DNA of 41,993 bases from a virus. A program made the translations under genes and the position numbers. Below the pieces are notes generated by a model. That model saw only the letters and a list, made by a program, of their open reading frames with translations. It was not told where the DNA came from and searched no databases. This document shows, in pieces, positions 1,119 through 41,992 of the stretch. Position 1 is the stretch's first letter. Every line of letters starts with the position of its first letter. The DNA is taken from positions 1-41,993 of the IMG/VR virus record IMGVR_UViG_3300005577_000055. One strand, written 5' to 3'.

Positions 1119-1148
1119 TCCATGTACATCTATGTAAATTCGTGTACA
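1119..1148 (-). promoter_or_regulatory. operator cluster 3 (three 10-bp half-sites)
   Basis: Read on the minus strand, it holds three consecutive units: TGTACACGAA, TTTACATAGA and TGTACATGGA. The outer units also form an inverted repeat CATGTACA/TGTACATG at 1121-1150. The ATG of the Cro-like gene (1148) lies inside the last unit, so binding here would block early transcription or a leaderless start. Confidence 0.65.
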
Positions 1149-1477
1149 TGCCCCCAGTCGACACGGCCCGCCTCAAGGCCCGGCGCGACGAGCTCGACCT
1201 CTCGATGGCCGATCTCGCCGAGCGCCTGGGCATCTCACCGGGCCACCTCAACAACGTCCTCTGCGGCTCGACGCACCCCTCTGGCCGACTGATCCACCGG
1301 TTTTCCCGCGCGCTCAAACTGCCCGTCGAGGAGATCGAAGCCGGGACACGCACGCCGAGAGGTGACCCGTCCGAGCCGCCCCAGCAGCCCCCGAACACCC
1401 CGAAATCGCCGCCGAAGCGGCAGGACACCGAGCACCCCACCGGCCCCAAGCGCGTGACCAACAAGGCCGTCGCGTGA
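1148..1477 (+). CDS. Cro-like XRE regulator, first gene of early operon
   Basis: A 109-residue protein with an N-terminal helix-turn-helix (about residues 19-40, MADLAERLGISPGHLNNVL) and a long Pro/Lys-rich C-terminal tail. The frame opens at 1112, but residues before the ATG at 1148 are encoded by the operator, so I place the start at 1148. That leaves no ribosome site and suggests leaderless translation. Its position opposite the repressor fits a Cro or early-switch role. The stop overlaps the next start by 4 bases. Confidence 0.75.
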   Translation: MPPVDTARLKARRDELDLSMADLAERLGISPGHLNNVLCGSTHPSGRLIHRFSRALKLPVEEIEAGTRTPRGDPSEPPQQPPNTPKSPPKRQDTEHPTGPKRVTNKAVA

Positions 1478-14366: not shown

Positions 14367-14572
14367 TCGTCCACGAGCCGGGCCGCACGCTGATCGACCG
14401 CCACTCCCTCGCGCTGCTCACCGGCCGCTCGGTGAACACCATCCGCGCCCGCTGCGAGGTCGTCGACCACCGGGACGGCCGCGCGCTCTACGACATGGAG
14501 CGCGCGGCCGCGGTGCTCGCCGCCATCCCGACACGCCGCAAGCGACCACCGGTCGCGACAGCGGTCGCGTGA
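14363..14572 (+). CDS. small helix-turn-helix protein
   Basis: 69 residues from the GTG at 14363, which overlaps the previous stop by 4 bases; GTG at 14354 is an alternative. DRHSLALLTGRSVNTIRARC then RALYDMERAAAVL follow the pattern of small MerR/excisionase-like helix-turn-helix proteins. It is the last gene before the 400-base gap and could be a late-gene activator or terminase-region regulator. Confidence 0.6.
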   Translation: MIVHEPGRTLIDRHSLALLTGRSVNTIRARCEVVDHRDGRALYDMERAAAVLAAIPTRRKRPPVATAVA

Positions 14573-14975
14573 GCGCTATATCATCCGATCTTGGGCGGAG
14601 CTTTGCCCGCCAACCCCCTCGAACTACCCCTTGGCTGACGTGGACGAGCCGCGCGGCCGGGCAGCACCTCGGGTTCCACGTGCCCGATGCCCGGCCACCA
14701 CCGGAAACTCCAGGGCGCGGGCTGGAGACCCTGATCCCCGCGAAGTCGAGCGAGCGACGTCCCGCTCGGCGCCTGAACGGCCCTCGGACTGGCAAGTACA
14801 TCCCCTCGTCCGGGGGCCGTTCTCGTACCCGGGGCTGCTCGGCAGAGCCAGCAGAGCCCTCGGCCCAGGCTCGCGCACGAGCGGGACGCGGAGGGCACCC
14901 CGACTACCTGCGGAAAGTCTCCTTCGCTCACCGGCGGGCAAGCCGCCAATAACGATCTTGAGTGGAGGTGACCCG
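14573..14975. other. non-coding gap upstream of terminase (candidate cos/pac or RNA region)
   Basis: 403 bases with no frame showing phage-like codon use. It holds a bulged hairpin TTG-GCGG/CCGC-CAA (14591-14613) that may end the early operon; a perfect 9-bp inverted repeat GGCCGGGCA/TGCCCGGCC (14655-14663, 14688-14696) with a nested CGGG/CCCG stem; and GATCTTG near both ends (14587 and 14954), each followed by a similar G-rich sequence. A strong ribosome site GTGGAGGTGA precedes the terminase ATG. Packaging sites commonly lie just upstream of the small terminase gene. Confidence 0.4.
14655..14696. repeat. 9-bp perfect inverted repeat with nested stem
   Basis: GGCCGGGCA at 14655-14663 and TGCCCGGCC at 14688-14696, with CGGG/CCCG pairing inside the 24-base loop. 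It lies in the terminase-proximal gap. Confidence 0.45.
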
Positions 14976-15494
14976 ATGGCGAAGCCTGACCCGATCAGCG
15001 ACGAGGACAAGCGCCGCGTCCGGGACCTCCACGCCGCCGGCGAGTCCCGCAACGCCATCGCCAAGGCCATCGGCCGCTCAGGCGCCACCGTCTCGAAGAT
15101 CGCCGACGAGCTGGGCCTGTCCTTCGACCGGTCCGCAGTCAAGGCCGCCACCGAGGCCAAGGTCGCCGACGCCCGCGCGCGCCGGGCCGCGCTGATGCTC
15201 GACCTGCTCGACGATGCCGCGCGGCTCCGGAAGCAGCTGTGGGCGGAGACGACGTACATCGACCACGGCGGCCGCGACTTCACGAAGGCCGAGTGGAAGC
15301 AGCCCGAGCCGAACGCGGCCGACAAGCTCAAGCTCGTGCAGGCCTGCACCACCGCGGCCAACGCGAGCATGAAGCTCGAGGAGCACGACACCGGCTCCGG
15401 CGGCGTCGACGGCGCGAAGTCCATGCTCGGGTCCCTGGTGGCTGGGCTGAAGGCCGCGTACGACCAGCTCCCGCCGGACGATGCCGGCGATTGA
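14976..15494 (+). CDS. terminase small subunit
   Basis: 172 residues, ATG preceded by GTGGAGGTGA. The N-terminus is a helix-turn-helix (ISDEDKRRVRDLHAAGESRN, then AIAKAIGRSGATVSKIADEL) that would recognise the packaging site. The middle is helical (oligomerisation) and the C-terminus acidic. Position directly upstream of, and 14 bases overlapping, the large subunit gene supports the call. Confidence 0.8.
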   Translation: MAKPDPISDEDKRRVRDLHAAGESRNAIAKAIGRSGATVSKIADELGLSFDRSAVKAATEAKVADARARRAALMLDLLDDAARLRKQLWAETTYIDHGGRDFTKAEWKQPEPNAADKLKLVQACTTAANASMKLEEHDTGSGGVDGAKSMLGSLVAGLKAAYDQLPPDDAGD

Positions 15495-16788
15495 CCTCTC
15501 GCGGGTCACGACGGTCCTGTCGCCGAAGCAGATCCGTTCGATCGTCGAGGCCCTGAAGACCGAGCAGATCGGGCTGTGGTCCGGCGCTGTCCGGTCGGGT
15601 AAGACCATCGCGTCGCTGCTGACGTTCCTGATCGCGGTGTCGGTCGCGCCGGACACCGGGCTGATCGTGATGGTCGGCAAGACCCGCGAGACCATCGAGC
15701 GGAACCTCATCGAGCCACTGCAGTCCGTGGCGCTGTTCGGCGTGCTGGCCAAGCAGGTGCACCACACTCGCGGCGCCACCACGGCGACGATCCTCGGCCG
15801 GACGATCCACCTGATCGGCGCCAACGACGTCCGCGCCGAGGACCGCATCCGCGGCATGACCATCGCCCTCGCGTACGTCGACGAGGCGACGCTGCTTCCC
15901 CGCGGGTTCTGGATGATGCTGCTCTCCCGGCTCTCCGTCGTCGGCGCGAAGCTGTTCGCCACCACCAACCCGGACGGGCCGGCGCACTGGCTGCGGAAGG
16001 ACTTCATCCTCCGCAAGGCCGAGGTGGGGCTGCAGGACTGGCACTTCACCCTCGACGACAACCCGTCCCTGGACCCGGCGTACGTCGAGCGGCTCAAGCG
16101 GCAGTACGTCGGCCTGTGGTTCCGCCGGTTCGTCCTCGGCGAGTGGTGCCTGGCCGAGGGCGCGGTGTACGACATGTGGGACCCGGACCGGCACGTCGTC
16201 AAGGAGCTGCCGGTCATCGACCGCTGGCTCAGCGCGGGCATCGACTACGGCACCACCAACCCGTTCGCCGCGCTGATCCTCGGCCTCGGCCACCCCGAGC
16301 ATGACGGCGCACGGCGCCTGTACCTCACCCACGAGTGGCGCTGGGACTCCAAGCACCAGCGCCGCGCACTCACCGACGTCGAGTACAGCGAGAAGTTCCG
16401 GGGCTGGCTCGGTGAGCTCCCGCATCCGCACTTCGAGGCGGCGAAGGGCATCTGGCCGGAATGGACGGTCGTCGACCCGTCGGCGGCGTCGTTCGTGCAG
16501 CAGCTGCACCGCGACGGCCTCACCCCCACGCTCGCGCGGAACGAGGTCCTCGACGGCATCCGCACCCTCTCGTCGCTGCTCGCGCGGGACCTGCTGCGCG
16601 TGCACGAGTCCTGCGAGGGGTTCATCAACGAGATCCCCGGCTACAGCTGGGACCCCGACAAAGCCGAGAAGGGCGAAGACGCCCCGATCAAGGCCGACGA
16701 CCACTCGCTCGACGGTGGCCGGTACGGCATCCACACCACCGAGGCGCTCTGGCGCCCACACGTCCAGGAAGGACAAGCAGCAGCATGA
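15481..16788 (+). CDS. terminase large subunit
   Basis: 435 residues: the ATPase and nuclease of the packaging motor. Walker A is GAVRSGKT (35-42), Walker B IALAYVDEA (128-136) with the catalytic Glu, and the coupling motif TTNP (161-164). The nuclease part has D255 in GIDYG, D332 in VVDPSA and Asp residues in ADDHSLDGGRYG (405-415), an RNase H-like set. Order and spacing fit the PBSX/Terminase_3-6 group. It overlaps the small subunit by 14 bases and the next gene by 4. Confidence 0.92.
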   Translation: MPAIDLSRVTTVLSPKQIRSIVEALKTEQIGLWSGAVRSGKTIASLLTFLIAVSVAPDTGLIVMVGKTRETIERNLIEPLQSVALFGVLAKQVHHTRGATTATILGRTIHLIGANDVRAEDRIRGMTIALAYVDEATLLPRGFWMMLLSRLSVVGAKLFATTNPDGPAHWLRKDFILRKAEVGLQDWHFTLDDNPSLDPAYVERLKRQYVGLWFRRFVLGEWCLAEGAVYDMWDPDRHVVKELPVIDRWLSAGIDYGTTNPFAALILGLGHPEHDGARRLYLTHEWRWDSKHQRRALTDVEYSEKFRGWLGELPHPHFEAAKGIWPEWTVVDPSAASFVQQLHRDGLTPTLARNEVLDGIRTLSSLLARDLLRVHESCEGFINEIPGYSWDPDKAEKGEDAPIKADDHSLDGGRYGIHTTEALWRPHVQEGQAAA

Positions 16789-17057
16789 GCGACGAGAAGA
16801 TCGACACCGGCAGCCAGAACGTCACCGGCTACACCAAGCAGAGCCCGGAGGCGCTCAGCCTGGTCAACCGGGTGAAGGACTTCGAGAACCGCACGGCGGA
16901 GTTCCTGCGCTGGTACCTCGGCGAGGGCGTGCCGATCGACCCGCGCCAGCTGGCCTCGGCCCGCACGCACTTCGAGTACGCCTTCTACCACCTGAACCGC
17001 GCGGTGTTCCAGCCCGCCGACCCGATCGGCGACGCGGTCAAGGCCGGCCCGCGCTGA
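16785..17057 (+). CDS. candidate Acb2/Tad1-type hairpin protein (possible anti-CBASS)
   Basis: 90 residues. After a polar N-terminus come two helices: LSLVNRVKDFENRTAEFLRW and ARTHFEYAFYHLNRAVF (59-75). The pattern of a first helix, a short loop and an ART.(L/F)(E/Q).AF..(L/A)NRA.F helix is what I recall for the Acb2/Tad1 hairpin family: small phage proteins that oligomerise and sequester cyclic nucleotides made by CBASS. Size (about 90 residues) and position in a small accessory block between terminase and portal also fit. It overlaps the terminase gene by 4 bases. The family call is by pattern only; a simple helical-hairpin structural protein remains possible. Confidence 0.5.
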   Translation: MSDEKIDTGSQNVTGYTKQSPEALSLVNRVKDFENRTAEFLRWYLGEGVPIDPRQLASARTHFEYAFYHLNRAVFQPADPIGDAVKAGPR

Positions 17058-17584
17058 TGTCCACCCAGGACGTCCACCCCGACGCCACCGTGCGCGGGCG
17101 CACCTGGTCCTGGCGCGAGCCCGAGCGCGGCGAGCACTTCCGGCGCTGCTCGTGGTGCGGCAGCATCCACCCCGAGGACCTGGCCGCAGAGCCGAGCTGG
17201 CTGCCGGAGTGGGCGGACCAGAAGTACGGGTGGCCGCACAAGTTCTACGTCGACGTGACGAACCAGGACCCCGAGCGGCTCTACGTCATCGGCTCCAGCT
17301 GGGGGCCGAGCGTGCCGACCGGCTACACCGTGGAGTGGATCGCCTGGGACGCGCTGACTCCCGATCAGCTCGAGGTGGCGCGCCGCGACGGCTACTTCGA
17401 CCGCGACCGCACCCCGTCGTTCGTCTACTTCGGGACACGCCCCAAGCACCACGCGAAGTTCTACACGATCCACCTGAGCGACCCGGAGCTCGACGAGGCC
17501 GTGAAGCACACCATCGAGCAGCGATCGGGCCTCGCCTTCGACTTCGAAGACGGCCGGGTCCGCTGGCGCCGAGCGGAGACCTGA
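17057..17584 (+). CDS. zinc-ribbon accessory protein, unknown
   Basis: 175 residues sharing one base with the previous stop. CSWCGSIHPEDL near residue 31 is a half zinc ribbon. The remainder looks alpha/beta with many aromatics (WPHKFYVDVTNQDPERLYVI, FVYFGTRPKHHAKFYTIHL). I do not recognise the fold. Such aromatic, His-rich proteins occur between terminase and portal in actinobacterial phages. Confidence 0.6.
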   Translation: MSTQDVHPDATVRGRTWSWREPERGEHFRRCSWCGSIHPEDLAAEPSWLPEWADQKYGWPHKFYVDVTNQDPERLYVIGSSWGPSVPTGYTVEWIAWDALTPDQLEVARRDGYFDRDRTPSFVYFGTRPKHHAKFYTIHLSDPELDEAVKHTIEQRSGLAFDFEDGRVRWRRAET

Positions 17585-17907
17585 TGCCGTACACCAGTCA
17601 CGGCCACTGGTTCGGGCCGGACGCGCCGACCGCCGAGGACGTGCAGCCGCGCCTCGTGGCGCGGTGCGGCGGGCCCGGTCTGTGCCCGGAGTGTGCGCTG
17701 GAAGCCGGCACCCCGCGCCGCACGGTCCAGCGTCGTCGGTACGCCACCCGGGCCGAGCTGGCCGAGCGGATGGCCGCGCACATGCGCGCCGAGAACGACA
17801 TGGACATCAGCTGGGAGCAGCTGGCGCTCGCCGCGCTCGAGGGCCTGGCCGAGATGCATGTCCCCGTCGACGCCCTCGTGAAGATCACCGTCGAAGAGGA
17901 GGCCTGA
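17584..17907 (+). CDS. small zinc-binding accessory protein, unknown
   Basis: 107 residues, one-base start/stop sharing. N-terminal HGHWFGPDAP and CGGPGLCPEC suggest a metal site. The C-terminal half is helical and acidic (AELAERMAAHMRAENDMDIS). No family recognised. Confidence 0.55.
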   Translation: MPYTSHGHWFGPDAPTAEDVQPRLVARCGGPGLCPECALEAGTPRRTVQRRRYATRAELAERMAAHMRAENDMDISWEQLALAALEGLAEMHVPVDALVKITVEEEA

Positions 17908-17908
17908 A

Positions 17909-18073
17909 GTGGCCATGCGTTACGCCAACGCCGACGAGCTGGCCGACATGCTCGCCGCCGTCCCGGACGTCACCTACGACCGGGCGACCGCCCGCGAAGT
18001 CGTCGACAGCCTCATCGCCATCGGCGTGCCGGTCGCCGTGCTCGTGATGATCGACGTTCCCGAGGAAGGCTGA
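17909..18073 (+). CDS. 54-residue protein, unknown
   Basis: GTG start with AGGAGG eight bases or so upstream; the product begins VAMRYANADELADMLAAVPD and ends IDVPEEG. Two amphipathic helices and a hydrophobic strand (VPVAVLVMI). It fills the gap exactly between its neighbours (1 base to each). Confidence 0.6.
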   Translation: MAMRYANADELADMLAAVPDVTYDRATAREVVDSLIAIGVPVAVLVMIDVPEEG

Positions 18074-18074
18074 C

Positions 18075-19637
18075 GTGCCGCTCCCCGACGCTGGCACGCC
18101 GTGGCCGCCGAAGGACTTCGTCGAGGCCTTCGAGACCATGCGCGCGTGGGGCGCCTGGTACTCCGGCGACCCCGACCAGCTCTCCGAGGTCTACGCCCGG
18201 ATCGGCTCCCGACTGGTCAACCACCCGCAGCTGCGCCCCTCGCAGCTGCGCGGCGGGGTGGTCGGCACGCTGGCCCGCTGGTTCTGGGGCCAACCGATCC
18301 CGCCCGGCGAGAAGCGGGGCAAGCTGCACGTCCCCGTCGCGGCCGACATGGCCGCCACGTCGGCGGATCTGCTGTTCTCCGAGCCGATCACCCTCACCTC
18401 CGAGGACACGGCGTCGGAGGGGCAGCTCAAGGAGCTGCTCTCCGACGACCTGCACGCGACGCTGCTGGAGGCCGCGGAGATCGCCGCGGCGAAGAGCGGC
18501 GCGTACCTGCGGATCGTGTGGGACGGCGAGGTCAACCCGGCCGGGCCGTGGCTGCAGGCCGTCCACCCCGACGCCGCCGTCCCCGAGTGGCGCTACGGGA
18601 AGCTCACCGCGGTCACCTTCGTGCGGCAGCTGCAGTGCGACGCGCAGGTGGTCGTGCGGCACCTCGAGCGGCACGAGCTGGGCGTGATCCTGCACGGCGT
18701 CTACGTCGGCACCGAAACCGACCTCGGGAAGCCGGCACCGCTGGACCAGTACCCCGAAACCAAGGGGCTCGCCAGCGAGGTCGCGACCAGGATCAACCAG
18801 CTCACCGCCGCCTACCTCCCCAACATCAAGCCGAACCGGGCATGGGGACACCTGCCCTCCTGCGCGCCGTTCGGCCGCTCGGACTTCGCCGGCACCGAAG
18901 GCCTGATGGACGCCGTCGACGAGACCTACACCTCGTGGATGCGCGACCTCCGCCTGGCGAAGGCCAGGATCATCGTGCCGGAGGCGTTCCTCCAGGACCG
19001 CGGCCCCGGCCGGGGCGCGACGTTCGACAGCGACCGCGAGGCGTACGAGGCGATCAACATGATCCCGGCGACGGACGGCAGCACGCAGTTGACGTTGCAG
19101 CAGTTCGACATTCGCTGGGAGGAGCACGAGAAGACCGCGCTCTCGCTGGTCGGCCGGATCGTCACCACCGCCGGGTACTCGCAGCAGACGTTCGGGCTCA
19201 CCGGCGACGTCGCCGTCACCGCGACCGAGGTGGCCGCGAGGGAACGGAAGTCGCTGATCACCCGCGACAAGAAGATCAAGTACGTGCGGCCACGCCTCGC
19301 CGAGGCCTTGCTGGCGCTGCTCAAGGTCGGCCAGGTCCACTTCGGATGGAAGGTCGACCCGAGCAAGCAGCTCACCGTGAACTTTCCCGACGCCGTCCAG
19401 CAGGACCCCGCGTCGCTGGCGCAGACCCTCGCGCTGATCGAGACCGCCCAGGCCGCGTCGATCGAGACGAAAGTCCGGATGCTCCACCCCGAGTGGGAGA
19501 AGCCCGAGGTGGACGAAGAAGTCGCCCGGATCAAGAAGGACACCGCCCCTCCGCAGGTCGAGAACCCCGACACCTTCACCGGCGGCGAGCCGGGCGACGA
19601 GAAGCCGCCAGCCGACAAGCCCCCGGCGGAGAAGTAG
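18075..19637 (+). CDS. portal protein
   Basis: 520 residues, GTG start one base after the previous stop. The overall layout fits the SPP1 gp6-like portal family: N-terminal helical clip, a beta wing (GAYLRIVWDGEVNPAGPWLQ), the long middle region ending DETYTSWMRDLRLAKARIIV, and a C-terminal Glu/Lys/Pro-rich tail. The portal forms the dodecameric ring at the capsid vertex through which DNA enters and to which the tail attaches. Position between terminase and minor capsid gene is typical. Confidence 0.85.
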   Translation: MPLPDAGTPWPPKDFVEAFETMRAWGAWYSGDPDQLSEVYARIGSRLVNHPQLRPSQLRGGVVGTLARWFWGQPIPPGEKRGKLHVPVAADMAATSADLLFSEPITLTSEDTASEGQLKELLSDDLHATLLEAAEIAAAKSGAYLRIVWDGEVNPAGPWLQAVHPDAAVPEWRYGKLTAVTFVRQLQCDAQVVVRHLERHELGVILHGVYVGTETDLGKPAPLDQYPETKGLASEVATRINQLTAAYLPNIKPNRAWGHLPSCAPFGRSDFAGTEGLMDAVDETYTSWMRDLRLAKARIIVPEAFLQDRGPGRGATFDSDREAYEAINMIPATDGSTQLTLQQFDIRWEEHEKTALSLVGRIVTTAGYSQQTFGLTGDVAVTATEVAARERKSLITRDKKIKYVRPRLAEALLALLKVGQVHFGWKVDPSKQLTVNFPDAVQQDPASLAQTLALIETAQAASIETKVRMLHPEWEKPEVDEEVARIKKDTAPPQVENPDTFTGGEPGDEKPPADKPPAEK

Positions 19638-38053: not shown

Positions 38054-38875
38054 TCAGGGGGAGCGGCGGATCTGCGCGACGACGCCGGCCATCAGCCGGT
38101 CGCACGGAGTCTCACGCCGCAACTGCGGGCCGTTCGGCCACCAGCCCTGCGCCGGGATGACGCCAGGACGGACGAGCTCCCAACCATCGAAGAGCTGCTC
38201 GATCGCGGCCCGACGGCGGAAGAATCCGCCGCTGAGGGTCCCCGTCCGGTCGAACACCTGCAGCAGCTGTTCGATGAGCACGACCGACGAGTCGAGCTCC
38301 GGGTCGAGGAAATGACTCGCGACCAGGTGCGACCCGGGCGCCACCAGATCGCTCAGATCCCGCATCCACGCGCGGGCTGCGTCATCGCCGAGCCAGTGCA
38401 GGACACCCGGCGCAACCACGGCGACCGGCTCGTCCCATCTGATCTCGCCGCTTCGGTTGATGCGCTCGACCGCGTCTTCCAGGTCCATCAGGTCTGCGCG
38501 CAGCACCGTCGCCAACCGGTCCGCGAGGTAGCCGGCGCCCTTGGCGGCCAGCAGCATGTCGGGCTCGACGTACACCACGCGCTCCAGCTGGCGAAGGGCT
38601 ACCGCTTCCCACGCGGCAGTGTGCGGCGGGTGTTCGGGCGTCAGCGGCGCCCCGCAGTAGATGACCTGGTCGATGCCGCGCACGCCGACGACGAACCGCC
38701 AGGCCCGCTCGATGAACTCAGCCTCGTTGATCGCGAGCCGCTCGACGTCCGGCGCGATCTCCCGAAGCTTGCCGAGCACCAGACGGTCCTGCTCGTACGC
38801 CTCGTTCCCGCCGAGCATCAAATTCCACAGGCGGGCGCGGTCCTGGCGGCAGTCGGCGTTGGCGGGCACGATCAT
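38054..38875 (-). CDS. SAM-dependent methyltransferase (DUF574 family)
   Basis: 273 residues. RLWNLMLGGNEAYEQDR near the N-terminus, IYCGAPLTPEHPPHTAAWEA, VVYVEPDMLLAAK (SAM-binding acidic residue after strand 2), ATVLRADLMD, EPVAVVAPGVLHWLGDD and APGSHLVASHF follow, in order, the S-adenosyl methyltransferase family PF04672 (DUF574) that is abundant in Streptomyces and relatives. The usual glycine motif (about residue 74) is altered to IYCGAP. Substrate unknown. The ATG overlaps the upstream 85-residue gene by 4 bases, so the two are an operon. Confidence 0.8.
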   Translation of the reverse strand: MIVPANADCRQDRARLWNLMLGGNEAYEQDRLVLGKLREIAPDVERLAINEAEFIERAWRFVVGVRGIDQVIYCGAPLTPEHPPHTAAWEAVALRQLERVVYVEPDMLLAAKGAGYLADRLATVLRADLMDLEDAVERINRSGEIRWDEPVAVVAPGVLHWLGDDAARAWMRDLSDLVAPGSHLVASHFLDPELDSSVVLIEQLLQVFDRTGTLSGGFFRRRAAIEQLFDGWELVRPGVIPAQGWWPNGPQLRRETPCDRLMAGVVAQIRRSP

Positions 38876-39129
38876 CGGCCTGGCTTCCGGGCGTCGGCGA
38901 GGGCCTCCAGCGTCGCGGAGATGTTCTGCTCCAGGGCGCTCGACGTGCTGTCGTCGCTTCGCCCGGCGATGATCGCCGAGGGTCCGTCGGCGCCGATCGC
39001 GATCACGGCGACCAGCCAGCCGTCGCGGTCCTTCGTCAAGCCGGTCGACACGGGTACGGCCCGGCCCATCGTGTCCTGCGTCCAGACGGTGCGCTCTTCG
39101 CGCCACCCGCGAACCTGCATGTTGTTCAT
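38872..39129 (-). CDS. 85-residue protein in operon with the methyltransferase
   Basis: ATG with a GGGGGCGG-type site upstream. A beta hairpin-like part (REERTVWTQDTMGRAVPVST, DGWLVAVIAIGADGPSAII) and a helix (ALEQNISATLEALADA). Translationally coupled to the methyltransferase and divergent from the GntR gene. The family is not recognised. Confidence 0.65.
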   Translation of the reverse strand: MNNMQVRGWREERTVWTQDTMGRAVPVSTGLTKDRDGWLVAVIAIGADGPSAIIAGRSDDSTSSALEQNISATLEALADARKPGR

Positions 39130-39193
39130 CGCCGCCCCCAGGCTGCGTCGACCACGTCCCGCATTCCGCTACTCTCCGTTGACTCATCAGCAC

Positions 39194-39249
39194 GTCTTGA
39201 CAACTACCGTGCCACACCCAGTACAACTGGTCAAGACAAGCTGACCAGT
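39194..39249. promoter_or_regulatory. GntR-type operator and divergent promoter region
   Basis: Two interlocking perfect inverted repeats: GTCTTGAC (39194-39201) with GTCAAGAC (39230-39237), and ACTGGTCA (39226-39233) with TGACCAGT (39242-39249). A TTGACA box (39197-39202) followed 19 bases later by TACAAC (39222-39227) could drive the GntR gene on the plus strand, so bound protein would cover the promoter. The methyltransferase operon starts on the other side. Confidence 0.65.
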
Positions 39250-39263
39250 GCGAGAATGGGAGC

Positions 39264-40025
39264 ATGGTGGATCGCAGAAGCGGAGTCCCTGCATTTCGGC
39301 AGGTCGCGGCCGACATACGCGAGAAGATCGCCGCTGGCCACTACGCCGCCGGCGAGCGGCTGCCAAGCGAACGCGAACTCGTCGAGTCCTACGGTGTGTC
39401 TCGCCCGACCGTCCGCGAAGCGGTCGACGTCCTACGGTCCGAAGGCCTTGTCACCTCCGAACACGGCCGCGGCGTCTTCGTCCGACCGCCGGCCAGCATC
39501 CAGCGCATCGCCCGATCTCGGCTCTCCCGCGACGCCCGGGAACGCAACCGCGGCGCCTTCCTCGCCGACGCCGCCGCCCGCGGCTTCACGCCGTCCACCT
39601 CCGTGAAGATCCGTTTCGAGCAGGCCGACGAACGCGCCGCCGCGCACCTCGCCATCGACGAGGGCGCCGAGATCACCGTGAGGGACAGGGTGATGCGTGC
39701 CGATGGGCTGGTGGTCCAACTTGCGGTGTCGCGCCTACCGCGCGACCTGACACGCGGCACCGCGATCGAACAGGTCGACACCGGCCCGGGCGGCGCCTAC
39801 GCCCGCCTGGAGGAAGCTGGCCACCGACTCGGCTCGTTCGTCGAGCACGTCGGCGCGCGGATGCCGCGCCCGGACGAAGCGACGCTCCTGCAGCTGGCGG
39901 ACGGCGTCCCGGTTATCACCGTCACGCGGGTCGCGTACAGCGAGGACGGCACACCGCTGGAGATGAACGACATGGTGCTCGCCGCGGACCGGTACGAGCT
40001 GTCCTACGAGTGGCCAGCCGACTGA
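39264..40025 (+). CDS. GntR-family regulator with UTRA domain (HutC type)
   Basis: 253 residues. The winged helix is clear (9-76: FRQVAADIREKIAAGHYAAG, ERLPSERELVESYGVSRPTV, EGLVTSEHGRGVFV). The C-terminal half is the UTRA ligand-binding fold (ITVRDRVMRADGLVVQLAVS, YARLEEAGHRLGSF, GVPVITVTRVAYSEDGTPLE). HutC-type GntR proteins, such as KorSA of actinobacterial elements, repress their own promoters and those of neighbours. Interlocking palindromes lie just upstream. Effector unknown. Confidence 0.85.
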   Translation: MVDRRSGVPAFRQVAADIREKIAAGHYAAGERLPSERELVESYGVSRPTVREAVDVLRSEGLVTSEHGRGVFVRPPASIQRIARSRLSRDARERNRGAFLADAAARGFTPSTSVKIRFEQADERAAAHLAIDEGAEITVRDRVMRADGLVVQLAVSRLPRDLTRGTAIEQVDTGPGGAYARLEEAGHRLGSFVEHVGARMPRPDEATLLQLADGVPVITVTRVAYSEDGTPLEMNDMVLAADRYELSYEWPAD

Positions 40026-40080: not shown

Positions 40081-40395
40081 TCAGGCTGCGGCAGGCCGAG
40101 CAAGCAGTCGGCTGCGGTGTTCGATCGACCAGTCGACGTACTCGCGGTGCCACGCGACCCACTGCTCGATGTCGCCGGCGTCGAGCCAGGCGATGTACTC
40201 GTCGGCCCACTTGGCGTAAGCCTCGCTCGCGTAGCGCACCAGCGCGACGACGACCACGAGGGTGCCGACGAAGACGGGACCGCCCCACGGGAGGTCCGAG
40301 GCGTGGCCGAGGATGAGAGCGGCGATCGCGACGGCGACGAAGGCAGCGCGGCCAAGCAGATATCCAAAGCGACGTGCGATCAAGGCGGCTGTCAT
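40081..40395 (-). CDS. small two-helix membrane protein
   Basis: 104 residues with GAAGGAG seven bases upstream on the minus strand. Two hydrophobic helices (about 9-29 and 38-55) and a charged, Trp-rich C-terminal half (KWADEYIAWLDAGDIEQWVA). It lies between the GntR gene and the integrase, divergent from the latter. An immunity or exclusion role is possible; no family recognised. Confidence 0.65.
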   Translation of the reverse strand: MTAALIARRFGYLLGRAAFVAVAIAALILGHASDLPWGGPVFVGTLVVVVALVRYASEAYAKWADEYIAWLDAGDIEQWVAWHREYVDWSIEHRSRLLARPAAA

Positions 40396-40492
40396 GGGAC
40401 GCTCCTTCGGAGGGTTCGGATCCCGCAGCCGTTTAGATGCGTCTAGCGTGTCCTACGGCCTGCGGTACTGCACTAAAGTAGCATGTTTCCTC
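40396..40492 (+). promoter_or_regulatory. integrase promoter region and possible attachment-site neighbourhood
   Basis: A 97-base gap between divergent genes. TAAAGT (40474-40479) is a candidate -10 box 14 bases before the integrase ATG, and TAGA-TGCG-TCTA (40434-40445) is a small palindrome. Serine integrase genes often lie next to their attachment site, but I cannot identify a core here. Confidence 0.3.
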
Positions 40493-41992
40493 ATGACGCC
40501 CAAGCAGCTCGTGCGCGCGTGGCTTGACCTGCGGATATCCGACGACAAGCAGGGTGAGGGCCGCGGCATCGCACGCCACCGCGAGGAGTGTCTCGCCGTG
40601 TGCGAGCGCCGCGGCTACACCGTCATCGGCGAGACCGTCGAGAACAGCGTCGGCGCCACCAAGGGCCGCCGTAAAGGCCTGATGGACCTTCTGGCCAAGA
40701 TCGAGGCCCGTGCGTTCGATGTGCTGGTGGTCTGGGCCCAAGACCGCCTGCTCCGCCGCAACGACGACCTCGAGCTCTTGATCCAGGCGTGCAGCACGAA
40801 CAACGTGACCGTCGTGACGGTCGGCGGCGACCTGGACCTCGCGACCGACGCCGGGCGGTTGGTCGCTCGGATCCTCGCGAGCGTGGCGGCCGGCGAGATT
40901 GAGCGGAAGCAGGCCCGGATGCGGTCGGCGTTCGAGCAGAGCTTGCGCGAGGGACGACCGTTCGGCGGGAGTCCTCGCAGGTTCGGCTACCAGCCAGGCA
41001 ACGTCGAACTCGACGAAGACGAGGCGCCCATCCTGCGCACCATGTACAGCATGTGGAACAGCGGCGGAACATTGGGCGAGATCGCGCGCTGGGCGAACGG
41101 AGAAGGAAGCCGGACCCCGCGCGGCCGCGCCTGGACAACGGGGTCGCTGCGCGAGGTGCTGGTCAACCCGGCCAACGCTGGACTGCGAGGCACCAAGCGG
41201 TTGCTGACCGACCCAGATGGACGGCCGCTACTCAACGACGCCGGCGAGCAGCGGCGCGCGCAGTGGCATGACGTGATCGGTCCGGCTGTGTGGCCTGGCG
41301 TGGTCGACGAACCGACGTGGCGCGCTGCGGTAGCGCGACTCAAGGACCCGTCGCGGAAGTCTGGGCGCGGAAACGAAGGCCGGAAATGGCTGTCCGCCGG
41401 CTTGTTCCGGTGCGCGACCTGCAACGCGGTGCTGAAGACCCGGACCAACAACCAGCAGCGGTCGGTGGCGTGCCCGTCGCTGCGTCATGCGCGACGGAAG
41501 GCTGAGCCGGTCGAGGACTACGTCCGGGACATTGTGCTCGAGCGGCTGCGCCAGGACGACGCGATCGATCTTGTCCAGGTGCGGACGCCTGACGTCGACC
41601 TGGCGGCGTTGCAGGAGGAAGCCGAGGCGATCAGCGGGCGGCTGCGAGTGATGGCGCGCGATGAGGTTCTCGGTCGGCGGACGCGCGATGAGGTCCTGAG
41701 TGCGCGCGAGGCCGCGAGTGAGCGGCTTAACGAGATCGAGCAGGTCGTCGAAGAGGCCGGCCGTCATGACGTAGTGGCTCGGTTCGTGACCGGTGGGCGT
41801 GATCCGCGTGAGGTGTGGGACGCTCCGGAGACTACGTTGGCGATGCGCCAGGGACTGATTGACGCGCTGGCGGTGGTGACTGTGGGATCGGGGAAGATCG
41901 GGCGGCCGCACAAATACGCGGTGGATGTGCCACCCGTGAACGTCTTTGTTACTTGGCGTACTCCCCCGGTGACACCCGTTCGGCACTCTTAA
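40493..41992 (+). CDS. large serine integrase
   Basis: 499 residues from the ATG at 40493; the frame is open further upstream but overlaps the divergent gene. Resolvase domain: catalytic S16 with R14 (DLRISDDKQ), WAQDRLLRRN at 81-90, GEIERKQARMR at 134-144. Then a recombinase domain (FGYQPGNVELDEDEAPILRT, GEIARWANGEG, TTGSLREVLVNPANAG), a zinc ribbon (C307-x2-C310, C327, perhaps H332) and a coiled coil (about 373-422). This is the full set for site-specific integration of a temperate phage between attP and attB. The window ends one base after its stop codon. Confidence 0.93.
   Translation: MTPKQLVRAWLDLRISDDKQGEGRGIARHREECLAVCERRGYTVIGETVENSVGATKGRRKGLMDLLAKIEARAFDVLVVWAQDRLLRRNDDLELLIQACSTNNVTVVTVGGDLDLATDAGRLVARILASVAAGEIERKQARMRSAFEQSLREGRPFGGSPRRFGYQPGNVELDEDEAPILRTMYSMWNSGGTLGEIARWANGEGSRTPRGRAWTTGSLREVLVNPANAGLRGTKRLLTDPDGRPLLNDAGEQRRAQWHDVIGPAVWPGVVDEPTWRAAVARLKDPSRKSGRGNEGRKWLSAGLFRCATCNAVLKTRTNNQQRSVACPSLRHARRKAEPVEDYVRDIVLERLRQDDAIDLVQVRTPDVDLAALQEEAEAISGRLRVMARDEVLGRRTRDEVLSAREAASERLNEIEQVVEEAGRHDVVARFVTGGRDPREVWDAPETTLAMRQGLIDALAVVTVGSGKIGRPHKYAVDVPPVNVFVTWRTPPVTPVRHS

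Follow-up and report, generated by a model that had tools for sequence, protein, structure and literature searches.

The gene and its surroundings

The window, that is, the whole of the virus contig that was analysed (41,993 bp), carries an open reading frame for a protein of 90 residues directly behind the gene for the large terminase subunit (Table 1). The reading frame is present as the earlier note had described it, and the helix that had drawn attention to it, ARTHFEYAFYHLNRAVF, corresponds to residues 59-75 of the protein, referred to below as the sponge protein. The start codon of the gene overlaps the terminase stop codon as ATGA, and its own stop codon overlaps the next start, at 17057, as TGATG. 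A Shine-Dalgarno-like stretch, AGGAAGGA, lies upstream, the third-position GC is 1.00, and homologues with identities from 28 to 88% are found in other phages; these features together identify it as a real gene. It is translationally coupled to the preceding large terminase gene. A promoter and terminator scan of 14400-18400 returned a single weak promoter-like match but found no terminator, and such a scan is uninformative for a high-GC actinophage.

Table 1. Genes, predicted helices and predicted ligand-contact codons in the window
Feature	Position	Strand	Basis or remark
HTH repressor-like gene	1148-1474		
Terminase large subunit, upstream, coupled (ATGA)	15481..16788	+	PHROG 2, E 1.5e-44
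Probable Acb2-family cyclic-nucleotide sponge gene, 90 aa	16785..17057	+	PF24729, PHROG 717, profile match to 8h2j/7uq2
Tyr16 codon (Vs.4 Tyr8, 8h2j Tyr11)	16830..16832	+	cGAMP-stacking in Vs.4; alignments, PMC10097602
Predicted helix 1 of hairpin, residues 21-45	16845..16919	+	AlphaFold2 model
Lys31 codon (Vs.4 Lys23, 8h2j Lys26)	16875..16877	+	cGAMP-binding in Vs.4; alignments, PMC10097602
Predicted helix 2 of hairpin, residues 53-74	16941..17006	+	AlphaFold2 model
Arg72 codon (Vs.4 Arg79)	16998..17000	+	cGAMP-binding in Vs.4; alignments, PMC10097602
Phe75 codon (Vs.4 Phe82)	17007..17009	+	cGAMP-stacking in Vs.4; alignments, PMC10097602
Accessory ORF, 175 aa	17057..17584	+	no Pfam/PHROGs match; in L005/L006, absent from L002-L004
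Accessory ORF, 107 aa (MPYTSHGH...)	17584..17907	+	only sub-threshold family matches; mosaic in relatives
Accessory ORF, 52-54 aa, start 17909 or 17915	17915..18073	+	no confident family
Portal protein, end of accessory slot	18075..19637	+	PHROG 533, E 1.9e-107
Large serine integrase	40313-41989		

The proposed position between terminase and portal holds for both flanks, which are assigned by PHROGs, with the amendment that three further small ORFs precede the portal gene. The description of the DNA as an actinobacterial prophage is likewise borne out. The serine integrase and the HTH repressor-like gene indicate a temperate phage, and a close relative lies inside an assembly of Amycolatopsis taiwanensis, where terminase, sponge (about 89% identical) and portal follow one another in the same order as in the window. 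The slot of this A. taiwanensis prophage (L002/L071) holds the sponge gene only and is thus its minimal form. The same genome contains a second, divergent Acb2-family gene (L070, 7479-7727), which is located before a holin-like ORF and directly behind a gene for an Rv2525c-like glycoside hydrolase, a probable endolysin, and presumably belongs to another prophage. At the integrase end of the window, genes for a SAM methyltransferase (PF04672) and a GntR-UTRA regulator lie on opposite strands and adjoin the integrase (38054-40025).

Family membership, predicted fold and predicted pocket

The family search that the earlier note had proposed gives a clear assignment, and the note's reading survives the sequence part of its own refuting condition, the lack of any family match. 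The Pfam profile PF24729, Acb2_Tad1_hairpin, matches the protein over the whole profile at 42.2 bits (E 9.6e-11), above the curated cut-off of 27 bits. PHROG 717, the family of T4 Vs.4 and Acb2 and the group in which the Vs.4 study found the homologues of Vs.4 (PMC10097602), matches at E 8.5e-8; NCBIfam contains no model that matches. When a profile of 17 homologues (alignment A1) is compared with the PDB, the Acb2 structures 8h2j (2.4e-18) and 8ixz (3.4e-18) and the Vs.4 structure 7uq2 (2.7e-13) are retrieved, and all matches outside Acb2/Vs.4, Tad1 among them, have E-values of about 0.8 or worse. The homologue profile is needed for this result, since a single-sequence phmmer search of the PDB gives no significant match, with Vs.4 at E 0.75. 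With L006 as the query, the sole match was L006 itself. A T4 Vs.4 protein sequence was used as a yardstick query and matched 7uq2 (1.3e-56); it served as a pointer, and the conclusions rest on the alignment of the homologue profile with the PDB structures.

The AlphaFold2 model, a monomer prediction from an alignment of 15 rows (A3, consisting of the window and the fetched loci only), agrees with the two-helix protein envisaged at the outset. Both helices of the hairpin have pLDDT values above 90, the mean pLDDT is 82.6, and the model also contains a short third helix at residues 80-87 and a poorly ordered N-terminus. The predicted fold is that of Acb2, a short antiparallel two-helix hairpin in 90 residues with no extra domain. 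In a Foldseek comparison of the model with the PDB, ranks 1-8 are all Vs.4 or Acb2 chains, at E-values that are weak (best 0.1), with probabilities up to 0.99 and a TM-score of about 0.56.

These data support the Acb2 half of the Acb2/Tad1-type assignment in the earlier note. The absence of the Tad1 beta domain makes the protein Acb2-type: the model has no strands of at least three residues, and Tad1 membership is rejected on this ground, on the length of the protein and on the poor E-values of the Tad1 chains. The Acb4 and Tad2 sponges were also considered and set aside, as a Pfam search up to E 10 gives PF24729 only and neither family is among the listed fold matches.

The cGAMP contacts of Vs.4 are Y8, H11, K23, R79 and F82, and its hexamer requires L29, A66, A73 and A77 (PMC10097602). 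Mapped through the profile-to-PDB alignment, four of the five contacts are identical in the sponge protein (Table 1), and the fifth, His11, is Gln19, where most members of the family have Gln, His or Leu. Across the 27 distinct sequences of the two alignments (17 rows in A1, 15 in A3), the Tyr, Lys and Arg never vary, and the position of Phe75 is occupied by Ala in a minority of the aligned homologues. The invariance of the three residues, together with the mostly retained Phe, favours an intact predicted dinucleotide pocket. At the hexamer interface, A59 and A66 match A66 and A73 of Vs.4, and the two differences (L29 to Thr37 and A77 to Leu70) fall at positions that vary in the family, the matched position of 8h2j being bulky too. 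Alignment and model thus show a protein, predicted to be a helical hairpin, that keeps residues with which T4 Vs.4 contacts cyclic dinucleotides.

The terminase-portal slot and late operons

The interval between terminase and portal was surveyed in 32 relatives fetched by terminase alone, 30 of which have both genes. Its length ranges from 6 to 3492 bp (n=30). In 6 of the 30 the sponge gene lies within the interval, in one (L053) it follows closely after the portal, and in the remaining 23 it was not found. The 175- and 107-residue ORFs are present or absent independently among relatives, and in L048 and L049 the same slot holds a much more divergent, Pseudomonas-Acb2-like version of the sponge. 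The slot of the window (16788-18075) and those of loci L039-L069 contain many small ORFs with no assigned function. Among relatives, the sponge is less conserved than the terminase (61% versus 94% in L024, and 53% versus 86% in L006). The presence and absence of the gene in the slot and its weaker conservation indicate cargo behaviour rather than that of a structural gene.

Acb2-family homologues are also found beside terminase and portal genes in otherwise unrelated phages, namely behind the terminase (L077), behind the portal (L027 and L030) and before the terminase (L025). Others are located downstream of the major capsid gene (Rhodobacter phages RcWaterboi and RcapMu, and Leptolyngbya phage Lsp-JY19) or in lysis cassettes (Pseudomonas phage 5400, L076, L078 and L079), and in Brevundimonas phages the gene lies among replication genes instead. 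This late-position pattern was noticed by inspection, with no statistical test. The presence and absence in the slot and the recurrence in late positions of unrelated phages fit a counter-defence gene carried as cargo, not a head component. A more general idea, which we regard as speculative and rather doubtful, is that temperate phages preferentially keep Acb2 genes in their late packaging, head or lysis operons, so that the sponge would be made just as the structural transcripts or proteins that set off nucleotide-signalling defences appear, and that the terminase-portal interval of these actinophages is a counter-defence slot. If this were true, the other small genes of the slot would be further defence inhibitors. 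In Rhizobium phage RHph_X2_26 (L018, 1420-2225), an annotated TIR-domain protein is encoded directly upstream of the Acb2-family gene.

Proposed mechanism and alternatives

The gene very probably encodes an Acb2-family sponge that acts by sequestering cyclic nucleotides. Because its start overlaps the terminase stop and it is positioned behind the terminase gene, it would be expressed late, alongside the packaging and head genes. The protomers would assemble into a hexamer with head-to-head pockets formed by Tyr16, Lys31, Arg72 and Phe75, and these pockets may bind cyclic dinucleotides, and perhaps trinucleotides, produced by the CBASS cyclases of the host or by related signalling systems. The sponge would withhold the nucleotides from their effectors without degrading them, giving an infecting or induced phage time to complete its cycle before host self-killing sets in. 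According to a review of the original work on Acb2, the protein acts when the prophage is induced rather than in the lysogen, which fits late expression (PMC12043709).

A protein with the Acb2 fold might have a natural target other than a CBASS dinucleotide, for example a cyclic trinucleotide that type III CRISPR also uses, or some other actinobacterial nucleotide signal. Which ligands are bound varies among Acb2 homologues, and the family has a separate binding site for cyclic trinucleotides as well (PMC12043709); the replacement of the His11 contact by Gln19 points the same way, as does the lack of a SMODS match in the A. taiwanensis genome. Against it, the Tyr, Lys, Arg and Phe dinucleotide contacts are kept, and SMODS (CD-NTase) cyclases are present in the bacterial family to which A. 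taiwanensis belongs (48 of 392 genomes) and in its genus (2 of 19). Of the 392 genomes, 8 have PF24729 genes, and no co-occurrence with cyclases is seen, since SMODS, the only cyclase type counted, is present in one of these eight compared with 48 of 392 overall. Such a different target is, on balance, unlikely.

The other two alternatives are less probable still. Loss of ligand binding in a degenerate family member would be in keeping with the change of His11 to Gln and the two interface substitutions, but the invariant Tyr, Lys and Arg, the retained Phe and the open frame speak against it. Compared with the three closest relatives, dN is below dS (0.07/0.36, 0.11/0.21 and 0.18/0.31), which also opposes degeneration, though dN is not below dS against the more distant copies in L024 and L006 and the extreme GC3 limits synonymous change; degeneration is judged improbable. 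A small head or packaging protein (a head completion or terminase accessory protein) that merely shares the two-helix hairpin would explain the position between terminase and portal on the same strand and the coupling. It does not account for the 23 of 30 relatives in which the gene was not found, the wide range of interval lengths, the homologues of other phages that adjoin genes for lysis, capsid or DNA replication, or the specific Acb2 profile and residue matches. The structural reading is rejected on presence and absence among relatives and is very improbable.

Comparison with known systems

As a probable Acb2-family sponge, the protein can be set beside several known systems. Tad1 (7uav, 8kbe) shares the helical hairpin at the Pfam level; it has about 125 residues and an N-terminal antiparallel beta-sheet domain before its two helices, which the sponge protein lacks. 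The Acb2 proteins of Pseudomonas phages (8h2j, 8h2x, 8h39, 8ixz) belong to the same Pfam family and have the same hairpin, with identical residues at the Y11 and K26 positions. In contrast with them, the inter-helix loop region of the sponge protein is ∼19 residues shorter, and it differs from 8h2j in having Phe75 in place of Ala and in its host and genomic place. T4 Vs.4 (7uq2) is the top Foldseek match and has the RAVFQP motif in common with the sponge protein, which differs from it in Gln19, in a shorter hairpin and in being encoded by a temperate actinophage, within a late operon.

Acb2 has been annotated as a putative cyclic-oligonucleotide sequestration protein in Microbacterium phage Statler (PMC13348362) and in Mycobacterium phages Xandras and BigBubba, where the annotating authors state that the role of the mycobacteriophage homologues is unknown (PMC11953737). 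These are also actinobacterial phages, of different phage clusters, and are likened to the present gene by annotation, not alignment. Actinobacterial CBASS and its inhibitors have been little tested, and the variable terminase-portal slot provides a place to look for more inhibitors. Given that Acb2 and Vs.4 have been characterised and that actinophages with an annotated Acb2 precede this one, the gene adds one more member and widens the range of an established counter-defence family to include a clade of temperate actinophages. What is mildly new is the accessory slot between terminase and portal, together with the recurrent placement in late operons.
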